Shown here piece after piece: positions 23,371 to 26,174 of a stretch of 64,000 nt of DNA. The notes beneath the pieces are model-generated. The model was not told where the DNA came from and made no database searches. It was given only the letters and a program-made list of their open reading frames with translations. The stretch comes from Prochlorococcus sp. MIT 1307 (GTDB lineage Bacteria > Cyanobacteriota > Cyanobacteriia > PCC-6307 > Cyanobiaceae), in assembly GCF_034092395.1 (NCBI RefSeq), contig NZ_CP139301.1:868001-932000 (forward strand), read 5' to 3'. Position 1 is the stretch's first letter, and every line of letters starts with the position of its first letter. The translations under genes and the position numbers were made by a program.

Positions 23371-24132
23371 TTAATTATCGGTCTCAATTTCCAAAAACTT
23401 AGGAACGCAGCTTTCTTTAGTTGATTTCAGCCCAAAACGCTCAGTTAAGCAGCTACGAATCAAAGGTTGTACATCCTTAACTGTCAATCCAGGGATCCAA
23501 GTATCAAGCTTTCCAACACTGACTTCTCGCAGTCCACAAGGAACTATTTCAGAAAAACCATTCAAATCACAGTCAACGTTAAGAGCAAAGCCATGTTGAG
23601 TAATCCAGCGGCGACAACCAACCCCAATAGAAGCCACTTTGAATCCATCAAGCCAAACCCCTGTATATCCATGAATTCGCTTAGGAGAAAGTCCCAAGCC
23701 ATAAAGAACATCTATCAACACCTGCTCAAGTTGACGTAGATACCAATTGAGATCGGTTCTATATCTACGGAGGTCAAGCACAAGATATACAACCAACTGT
23801 CCAGGCAAATGATGAGTCACTTCCCCCCCTCGATTAATACGATACAAATCCGAAGGAGGGTTATTTGGATCGAAACGCAAATTCATCTCACTCCCTCCTC
23901 TTCCCAAGGTGTAACAATTCGGATGCTGGAGAAGCCAAACTGCTTGGGGCAAATCTCCTCGTGTTAAAAGGTTTTTCTGCCAATATTTCTGCCAATCCCA
24001 TGCGGTCTGGAAAGGTACCAAATCTCTTGGCTCAAGAATAAAAGCCTGAGAAATGTTTCCCAATGGACAAGTTTTATCTAACTTGCCGGTATGAAATGGC
24101 CCAGGAGTAATGCCATGAAGCTGCTTATCCAT
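23371..24132 (-). CDS. lipB: Octanoyl-[ACP]:protein N-octanoyltransferase
   Basis: The 253-residue protein transfers octanoate from ACP to lipoyl domains, such as the pyruvate dehydrogenase E2 encoded nearby. Catalytic Cys199 lies in IVPCGL and Lys165 in KVASIGVGCRRW; the substrate loops GRGGSEMNL and RGGEVTHHLPGQLVVYLVLD are also present. The ATG at 24132 lies inside the first codons of the divergent hpf gene (18-base head-to-head overlap). A TTG in TCPLGNISQAF (near residue 24) would remove the overlap and still keep the whole domain. Confidence 0.93.
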   Translation of the reverse strand: MDKQLHGITPGPFHTGKLDKTCPLGNISQAFILEPRDLVPFQTAWDWQKYWQKNLLTRGDLPQAVWLLQHPNCYTLGRGGSEMNLRFDPNNPPSDLYRINRGGEVTHHLPGQLVVYLVLDLRRYRTDLNWYLRQLEQVLIDVLYGLGLSPKRIHGYTGVWLDGFKVASIGVGCRRWITQHGFALNVDCDLNGFSEIVPCGLREVSVGKLDTWIPGLTVKDVQPLIRSCLTERFGLKSTKESCVPKFLEIETDN

Positions 24133-24702
24133 GGTCGAAACCTTGAACTAACTCCTGCATTACGTGAATACACACAATCAAAGCTGCAAAAAGCGATTCA
24201 ACACTTTGAAGACATGGTCAAAGAAGCCGATGTTCACCTATCAGTAGCGAGGAACCCTCGAACTCCGCAACAAACTGCAGAAGTAACTGTTTTTGCTAAC
24301 GGCACTGTAATAAGGGCTCAAGAGCGAAGCGAGAATCTTTATGCAAGCATTGACCTGGTAGCAAGCAAACTCTGTCGACAACTGCGTCGTTATAAAGAAC
24401 GCCACTCTGACCATCACCATAGTGCCGGTCATAGTGCCTCTTTAACACCATCAACAGAAGCCGTTATTGATGAATCTTCAATCGAGGGATCTCTAATTGA
24501 AGGGAAAAAAGTTCAACTGCCTAATCCAGGAGTAAGGCGAAAGTATTTTCCAATGGAACCTATGACTGTTGATGAGGCTCGACATCAACTGGATCTCATC
24601 GATCACGACTTTTATCTATTCAGAGAAAAAACAACAAAAGAATTGCAAGTTATATACAAAAGGAACCATGGTGGATATGGAGTTATCCAAGCAAAAAATT
24701 GA
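24115..24702 (+). CDS. hpf: Long-form ribosome hibernation promoting factor (LrtA/HPF)
   Basis: The 195-residue protein has the N-terminal S30AE domain (MKLLIHGRNLELTPALREYT, then QHFEDMVKEADVHLSVARNP) and a linker leading to the C-terminal dimerisation domain (VRRKYFPMEPMTVDEARHQL, then YKRNHGGYGVI). Long HPF dimerises 70S ribosomes in stationary phase; the cyanobacterial homologue LrtA is known as a light-repressed transcript. The start is the ATG at 24115; an ATG at 24091 only adds non-conserved residues. It overlaps the divergent lipB start. Confidence 0.93.
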   Translation: MKLLIHGRNLELTPALREYTQSKLQKAIQHFEDMVKEADVHLSVARNPRTPQQTAEVTVFANGTVIRAQERSENLYASIDLVASKLCRQLRRYKERHSDHHHSAGHSASLTPSTEAVIDESSIEGSLIEGKKVQLPNPGVRRKYFPMEPMTVDEARHQLDLIDHDFYLFREKTTKELQVIYKRNHGGYGVIQAKN

Positions 24703-24717
24703 TCTTGGCAATTTTTT

Positions 24718-25392
24718 ATGGAGGCTAAAAATGATTTACCAGATCTTTCTCCGCTAATCCATCAAGCGGCTTTAAACCCTCATCTGTCCATCGATGATCT
24801 GAATAAGCTTTGTGATGCTTCTCGTTACTACAGTTTTTCTGGATTTTGTACCAATCTCTCTCGACTTACAGCCGCCAGAGAGAAGCTAGGTCCCCCCAGC
24901 CAAACAAAGCTGATTGCTGTTATCGCCTTTCCCTTTGGTTTTATAACCAGCAAACAGAAACAAGCAGAAGCTGAATGGGCTGTAGAAAGAGGTGCGGAGG
25001 AATTGGAAGTGGTACCTAACTTCTTGGCGTTAACCGAAGAAAAAACAGAAGCATTCGCAGAAGAACTTGCAGGTATTTGTGAAACTGGAATTCCTGTAAG
25101 AGTCATTCTAGATACTGTGAACCTTCATCCAGAAAAGCTATCCCTTGCAGTGGAAGCAGCAATCGATGCAGGAGTTTTTAGCCTACAAAATGGAAACGGT
25201 TTCGGGCGTAATGTTCTCTCTTCTGATATTCATCAACTATCAAAATTGACTCGTGGTCGATGCGAAGTAAAAGCGGTAGGGGGGGTCAAAACAGTTAATC
25301 AAGTAGTAGAACTAATTGAAGCAGGAGCGACAAAAATTGGCACGACCGTTGGACCTCAATTGATTCAAAGTCTCCTTAAAAGCACAAAGTGA
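24718..25392 (+). CDS. deoC: Deoxyribose-phosphate aldolase homologue with an altered active site
   Basis: The 224-residue TIM-barrel protein aligns with DeoC: SGFCTNLSRL (Cys44), IAFPFGFITSKQKQAEAEWA, VRVILDTVNL, and CEVKAVGGVKT with Lys185, equivalent to E. coli Lys201. At the place of the Schiff-base Lys167 (FIKTSTG in E. coli), however, this protein reads FSLQNGNGFG, so Gln157 stands there, and the Asp102 position is Glu97 (ELEVV). It may therefore not be a working aldolase. Its TGA overlaps the GTG start of recO (GTGA), so the two are translationally coupled. Confidence 0.75.
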   Translation: MEAKNDLPDLSPLIHQAALNPHLSIDDLNKLCDASRYYSFSGFCTNLSRLTAAREKLGPPSQTKLIAVIAFPFGFITSKQKQAEAEWAVERGAEELEVVPNFLALTEEKTEAFAEELAGICETGIPVRVILDTVNLHPEKLSLAVEAAIDAGVFSLQNGNGFGRNVLSSDIHQLSKLTRGRCEVKAVGGVKTVNQVVELIEAGATKIGTTVGPQLIQSLLKSTK

Positions 25393-26174
25393 GTTTTGAA
25401 CAACGTATTCAAGGTCTCTCTCTAAAAGTAGGGCCTCTTGGAGAGAATGATCGACTGTTGACGATTCTTACTAATGAAAAAGGTGTGACGCGTGTAGCTG
25501 TACCAGGTGCAAGAAAACCAAAAAGCAACTTCGCAGCGGCTGCGCCTTTTACTTTTCTCGATCTTCAACTTGGAGGACGTGCTGAGCTAAAGCGTGTTCG
25601 TGATGTAAAAGTTCTTCGTAGCTATACCAAAGTAGGTCAACAACTTGAAACTCTTGCAGCAGCACAAGCTCTTGCAGAACTAAGCCTATTACTAGTCGCT
25701 AACAACGATCCTATTCCAGGAATGCTCAGTACCGTACTAATACATTTAGAACGACTAATAGAGTCTGAAAAAAATGGTGAGACCAACTCAATTTTAACTT
25801 TGGCTAAAAGTGTTCAGTCTTGTGTTCATCTGCTGGCGCTGGGAGGTTATGGCCTTCCTATTCAAAATTGTTGCCACAGTGGATTACAGCTAGATCCACC
25901 TATTGGCAAATGGGATTGGCGATGCAGCTTTATTCCTGAAGAGGGGTTTGCAATTGGTTCCATCCCAAATTCAGCTATACAACTTAATCCTTCTGAATTT
26001 GCTCTCCTCCAAAGACTGCTTCGTCCCAATCTTCCAAAACGAAAAGATGGAGAACTAATGGGACCTAAAGAAGTATGGATAAGGCTCCTGATCGTGGTGG
26101 AAAATTGGATCAACAATCATCTACCCAGAAATTCAAGTGCCCTGAAGATGTTGCGTGAATCCCTTTTAGATTAA
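25389..26174 (+). CDS. recO: DNA repair protein RecO
   Basis: The 261-residue protein begins with a GTG that overlaps the stop of the deoC homologue. The N-terminal OB-fold is visible as ERIQGL-like SFEQRIQGLSLKVGPLGEND, ILTNEKGVTRVAVPGARKPK and LQLGGRAELKRVRDVKVL, followed by the helical C-terminal domain. The region GLPIQNCCHSGLQLDPPIGK is a partial remnant of the zinc-binding site of some RecO proteins. RecO loads RecA with RecR on gapped DNA. Confidence 0.9.
   Translation: MSFEQRIQGLSLKVGPLGENDRLLTILTNEKGVTRVAVPGARKPKSNFAAAAPFTFLDLQLGGRAELKRVRDVKVLRSYTKVGQQLETLAAAQALAELSLLLVANNDPIPGMLSTVLIHLERLIESEKNGETNSILTLAKSVQSCVHLLALGGYGLPIQNCCHSGLQLDPPIGKWDWRCSFIPEEGFAIGSIPNSAIQLNPSEFALLQRLLRPNLPKRKDGELMGPKEVWIRLLIVVENWINNHLPRNSSALKMLRESLLD

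Follow-up and report, generated by a model that had tools for sequence, protein, structure and literature searches.

The window analyzed here, a stretch of 64,000 nucleotides from Prochlorococcus sp. MIT 1307, encodes on its forward strand (positions 24718–25392, with an ATG start) a DeoC-family protein of 224 amino acids that lacks the lysine with which deoxyribose-5-phosphate aldolase (DERA, EC 4.1.2.4) forms a Schiff base. Judging from the sequence together with published mutational work, Schiff-base chemistry has very probably been lost from this protein. The explanation that we favor, with moderate confidence, is that a former DERA without a Schiff base has been retained for the binding of a phosphate ligand or for some other non-aldolase role.

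Fold, active site, and phosphate-binding loops

The ORF scores 130.8 bits against the equivalog profile for deoC in NCBIfam (TIGR00126, cut-off 117.3 bits); the Pfam DeoC profile (PF01791) gave no match in a search of the window's own genome. Solved DERAs are related to the protein by sequence with phmmer E values down to 9e-27, and its AlphaFold2 model, a confident barrel with a mean pLDDT of 96.3, superposes on them with Z scores of 28–34 (33.8 to 6msw and 28.1 to the E. coli enzyme, 1jcl). Both the family profile and the TIM-barrel fold that characterize DERA are present, and the retention of the DeoC fold proposed in the first-pass annotation is borne out by the superposition.

The active site is where the protein departs from its relatives. 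The position of E. coli Lys167 is occupied by Gln157 (codon 25186–25188, forward strand, as are all features described here) and that of Asp102 by Glu97 (25006–25008), and the second lysine, E. coli Lys201, is retained as Lys185 (25270–25272). The phmmer alignment, which has no gaps around the site, places FSLQNGNGFG on FVKTSTGFG and EELEVVPN on DEIDMVIN of solved DERAs; the MAFFT alignment with E. coli DeoC, whose reference sequence was checked and is identical to that of PDB 1jcl, gives K167 to Q157, D102 to E97, and K201 to K185, along with the further changes D16 to H15, K137 to R128, and E141 to D132. These alignments agree with the three equivalences named in the first-pass annotation, and the AlphaFold2 model places Q157 at the end of a strand (155–157), K185 within residues 183–187, and E97 within residues 95–98, strands that we counted on the model as barrel strands 6, 7, and 4, respectively. 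Unlike DERA, therefore, the window protein has glutamine on strand 6 in place of the Schiff-base lysine and has also changed D16, K137, and E141, whereas it shares with DERA the whole fold, the phosphate loops, and the positions of the proton-relay pair (D102 and K201), filled by the conservative Glu97 and by Lys185.

The phosphate-binding role of the corresponding loop residues in E. coli DeoC has been described (PMC7671976), and the three loops built around G171/K172, G204–V206, and S238/S239 are present in the window protein as GFG, GGV, and GTT. Loop 1 (Asn160-Gly161-Phe162-Gly163, 25195–25206) lies in the E. coli Gly171/Lys172 region, loop 2 (Gly188-Gly189-Val190, 25279–25287) corresponds to G204-G205-V206, and loop 3 (Gly208-Thr209-Thr210, 25339–25347) was equated by inspection with Gly236-Ala237-Ser238. 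The charge of E. coli K172 is replaced by Phe, as it is in two of the three non-cyanobacterial references used. Among the 45 proteins of the window's clade, Gly161, Phe162, Gly163, Gly188, Gly208, and Thr209 are invariant, Gly189 is found in 44 and Asn160 in 42, and residue 210 is always Ser or Thr; Asn160 is specific to this clade, all 33 sequences of the divergent genus g18 having Asp there. The mean entropy at the phosphate-loop sites of the clade is 0.61 bits versus 1.45 bits over all sites (permutation p 0.0024). It is 0.68 bits at the catalytic-site positions (permutation p 0.009), which are conserved partly in a new form, namely, Gln157, Asn160, and Gln16.

Distribution and repeated loss of the lysine

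Residue 167, in E. coli numbering, is Gln in 44 of the 45 proteins of the window's clade and Ile in the remaining one, and Gln in 33/33 from g18, which is probably high-light Prochlorococcus, as its divergence fits. This conservation excludes chance or a sequencing or assembly error as the origin of Gln157. Lysine occupies the position in all 20 proteins of a sister group belonging to the window's family, as it does in 70 further proteins from cyanobacteria; these groups were formed by residue 167 itself, so that their 90/90 is by construction. Conservation of Gln in all picocyanobacteria, which the first-pass annotation proposed to check, thus holds for the clade and for g18 but fails in the sister clade of the same family. 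The lysine-bearing cyanobacterial DeoCs are otherwise the same gene, single copy, located upstream of recO, with the phosphate loops and Cys44 kept; their Lys167, mostly Lys137, and Glu141 correspond, in the window's clade, to Gln, to Arg in most members, and to Asp or Asn.

The relay positions are less distinctive. Residue 97 is Asp in 34/45 of the Gln clade, Asp or Glu in 45/45 and in 33/33 of g18, and Glu at this position also occurs in 11 of the 70 lysine-bearing DeoCs; by these alignments, Glu97 is not a feature of the clade, and the exchange of Asp for Glu is conservative. Lys185 is present in 42/45 of the Gln clade, being missing in three members, and in 33/33 of g18. The only lysine column gained in the Gln clade is at position 64 (76%; absent in g18), and the older lysine positions that persist are 81 and 185. 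A replacement Schiff-base lysine elsewhere in the pocket was rejected, because no lysine column has been gained near the pocket.

Several individual sequences deserve mention. The one protein with Ile at position 157 (L020) has the surrounding GNGFG motif intact, and two proteins of the Lys167 sister group (L040 and L170) have lost the second lysine, having Glu and Ser at 201. The g18 proteins (L086, L093–L122, L171, and L172) are only ~29% identical to the other Gln forms and have lost Cys44 and the Phe-Pro-x-Gly (FPxG) motif, but they keep Gln157, Lys185, and the phosphate loops.

By alignment, loss of the lysine recurs outside picocyanobacteria, in Synechococcus elongatus and in two other lineages. 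The S. elongatus protein (family f11; L058 and L061) has Q167, H201, and N102 and is thus without both active-site lysines; a genome of this family (G089) has a KaiC stretch identical over 228 amino acids to a solved KaiC, presumably that of S. elongatus PCC 7942. All seven sequences read from family f4 have Met at residue 167, and both sequences read from genus g114 have Gln, the other members of its family f24 having Lys. As in the window, the same lysine is lost in these three groups and the gene still lies upstream of recO, but their other pocket residues, K137, E141, and T170, have stayed as they were; in the picocyanobacterial clade, these have been remodeled. The proton-relay pair of lysine and acid survives in three of the four lysine-less groups. 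A DeoC tree from which the pocket columns were left out and a RecO tree each give four changes of lysine state. A single origin of all lysine-less DeoCs, picocyanobacterial and other, is rejected (p-AU 6.6e-62); for the three non-picocyanobacterial losses alone, a single origin is not rejected with these short proteins (p-AU 0.113 for DeoC and 0.486 for RecO), and we call them independent because they fall in three different family codes and because g114 groups with lysine-bearing members of f24. The Schiff-base lysine would accordingly have been lost at least twice and most likely four times.

Gene neighborhood, pathway context, and selection

The gene lies between one for a long ribosome hibernation factor of the S30AE, lrtA/hpf type (24091–24702; PF02482 and PF16321 over cut-off) and recO (25389–26174, GTG start; PF11967 and PF02565 over cut-off), the stop of deoC and the start of recO sharing the four bases GTGA at 25389. 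A scan for promoters and terminators yielded nothing exceeding chance. The order hpf-deoC-recO is maintained through the window's family, with overlapping or short junctions in most cases, and recO immediately follows deoC in 149/179 loci, 86/89 lysine-less and 63/90 lysine-bearing. Two of the three lysine-less loci without an adjacent recO are contig ends; in the other (L034), which has a Gln-form DeoC, no recO was found within 3.5 kb. Because the adjacency also occurs in lysine-bearing loci, it is of ancient origin and did not arise through loss of the lysine. The translational coupling to recO suggested in the first-pass annotation therefore has the right geometry in the 4-base overlap, but the adjacency is old in the class and thus no peculiarity of the lysine-less form.

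The pathway in which DERA classically operates seems to be missing. No deoB (TIGR01696) exceeded the cut-off in any of 99 cyanobacterial genomes, nor did a pyrimidine-nucleoside phosphorylase (TIGR02644) in any of eight, and neither was found over cut-off in the window's genome, which sets it apart from the classical DERA setting. The classical route into deoxyribose-5-phosphate is consequently absent even where the lysine is kept, which suggests that the role of DeoC in cyanobacteria was unusual already before the lysine was lost. A PNP-family protein is encoded once in the window's genome and not in S. elongatus; in another genome (G198, contig C116, 67986–71564), a PNP/MTAP-family gene lies ~2.2 kb from a lysine-less deoC. 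A second, canonical DeoC was not found elsewhere, with one match per genome in the window's family, and no DeoC relatives were found on viral contigs as signs of phage carriage.

The gene is widely retained, being present in 67/68 good genomes of the nearest relatives, in 242/250 of the cyanobacterial class, and in 14/15 of the streamlined genus g18. Both sampled members of genus g142 (G249 and G310, 97–98% complete) gave no DeoC match, possibly a true gene loss, and in one genome (G320; L155/L157) deoC is split into two overlapping frames of 172 and 75 amino acids, possibly by a frameshift or an assembly error. In g18, deoC has a median dN/dS of about 0.19, compared with 0.13 for the hibernation factor gene and 0.08 for recO; selection on deoC is purifying but weaker than that on its neighbors. 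Purifying selection at 0.19 in a gene whose product has Gln throughout g18 in place of an essential catalytic residue is the combination by which a pseudoenzyme is recognized. Mean identities in the Gln clade are 50% for DeoC, 62% for RecO, and 76% for the hibernation factor, versus 61%, 60%, and 72% in lysine-bearing relatives. DeoC in the Gln clade is therefore less conserved than RecO and the hibernation factor would predict, indicating that constraint relaxed once the lysine had gone, and this also fits a weak or fading function, which counts against the explanation that we favor, as does the disappearance of Cys44 and the FPxG motif from g18. RecO shows no matching acceleration in g18, which argues against an obligate, tight contact between DeoC and RecO. 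Their partial correlation is 0.55 without g18 and 0.39 with it, and control gene pairs reach up to 0.48; tight co-evolution was therefore rejected as a reading of these values, which are uninformative.

Possible roles of the lysine-less protein

In E. coli DeoC, the mechanism of which has been described (PMC6016325, PMC6244999), any exchange of K167 costs the enzyme its function (PMC6016325). Since the fold is kept while the lysine is absent without a substitute, the earlier remarks that ordinary aldolase chemistry seems impossible and that the protein may have another reaction or a binding role appear well founded, at least at the level of sequence comparison. The ancestor would have been a deoxyribose-5-phosphate aldolase that gave up its Schiff-base aldol chemistry. 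The loops suggest that the pocket probably still accommodates a small phosphorylated ligand, for example, deoxyribose-5-phosphate or a related sugar phosphate; by binding it, the protein might act as a sensor or effector or carry out a reaction that needs no imine. A second role would already have been present in cyanobacterial DeoC while the lysine remained, and the lysine might have been lost repeatedly, with the gene retained, because of this ancestral role. The neighborhood hints at a possible link to DNA repair, for example, the handling or sensing of deoxyribose-phosphate released in repair. Tentatively, and with the balance against it, one could go further and suppose that aldol chemistry is not the primary task of DeoC in cyanobacteria and that the protein has a class-wide, recO-linked sugar-phosphate-binding function, for which the lysine was an optional leftover, discarded four times.

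The main rival to retention for ligand binding is that the protein catalyzes another reaction, such as the isomerization or epimerization of a sugar phosphate by proton transfer, with Lys185 and residue 97 as the relay and Gln157 and Asn160 positioning the substrate. We regard this as unlikely but worth serious attention, because the relay residues are nearly constant in the Gln clade and g18, and the conservation of the clade-specific Gln157, Asn160, and Gln16 at 93–98% looks more like a new function than decay. The survival of the relay pair in three of the four lysine-less groups means that catalysis could survive, which also counts against our preferred explanation. As a general answer, however, such a reaction is opposed by S. 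elongatus, where Asn and His replace both relay residues, and by the three clade members without Lys185, and neither a substrate nor a pathway partner was identified. The DERA barrel has been turned to other chemistry in the KE70 Kemp eliminase and other re-engineered DERAs (3npu, 8fmd, and 9fd7), but these are man-made, whereas the window protein is natural and its reaction only a candidate. It is improbable that the protein is still an aldolase whose Schiff base has been taken over by Lys185: this residue is in the same pocket and is the sole lysine kept across the clade, but exchange of K167 abolished the function of the E. coli enzyme (PMC6016325), Lys185 is itself missing in S. elongatus as well as in the three clade members, and deoB is absent.

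Retention of the ORF as a remnant, solely because its translation delivers ribosomes to recO through the 4-base overlap, would agree with the more frequent recO adjacency of lysine-less loci, their mostly overlapping or short junctions, and the faster evolution of DeoC after lysine loss. We think it quite improbable, because coupling alone cannot explain a dN/dS of 0.19, pocket residues conserved at 97–100%, and a well-formed barrel model, and because L034 keeps the Gln form without a nearby recO. Ordinary decay of a dispensable enzyme heading for loss seems very improbable, although it would account for the acceleration in the Gln clade and g18, and one study describes the DERA of S. elongatus PCC 7942 as non-essential although conserved (PMC5464585). 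The gene is under purifying selection, and almost every complete genome, even among the most reduced, has it open, full-length, and conserved; a Prochlorococcus study reports that its transcript is enriched in the dark (PMC5974335).

Retention for ligand binding or another non-aldolase role bears on how the gene has been classified. In that Prochlorococcus transcriptome study, deoC is grouped with sugar degradation (PMC5974335). The study that lists DERA as non-essential, a 2017 analysis using essentiality data from S. elongatus PCC 7942, places the enzyme with other genes that are conserved throughout cyanobacteria although they are not essential, and it ascribes disagreements of this kind to assay conditions (PMC5464585). 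Passages of these two papers do not describe a lysine-less DeoC, and a search of open-licence papers found no such description. The actual role of the window protein is probably not the one that its aldolase label implies, and the annotated DERA reaction, as the sequences indicate, would be impossible in S. elongatus and in most marine picocyanobacteria. The puzzle of a "conserved but non-essential" DERA would thereby be reframed and could be addressed in a strain amenable to genetics. Should the retained role be demonstrated, a phylum-wide "metabolic enzyme" would prove to be something else, for which the lysine-bearing and lysine-less versions are natural controls. Among the lineages that have discarded the lysine are the most abundant phototrophs of the ocean and a standard laboratory species, S. 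elongatus, whose DeoC is annotated and discussed as a DERA despite the loss of both lysines and of the relay Asp.
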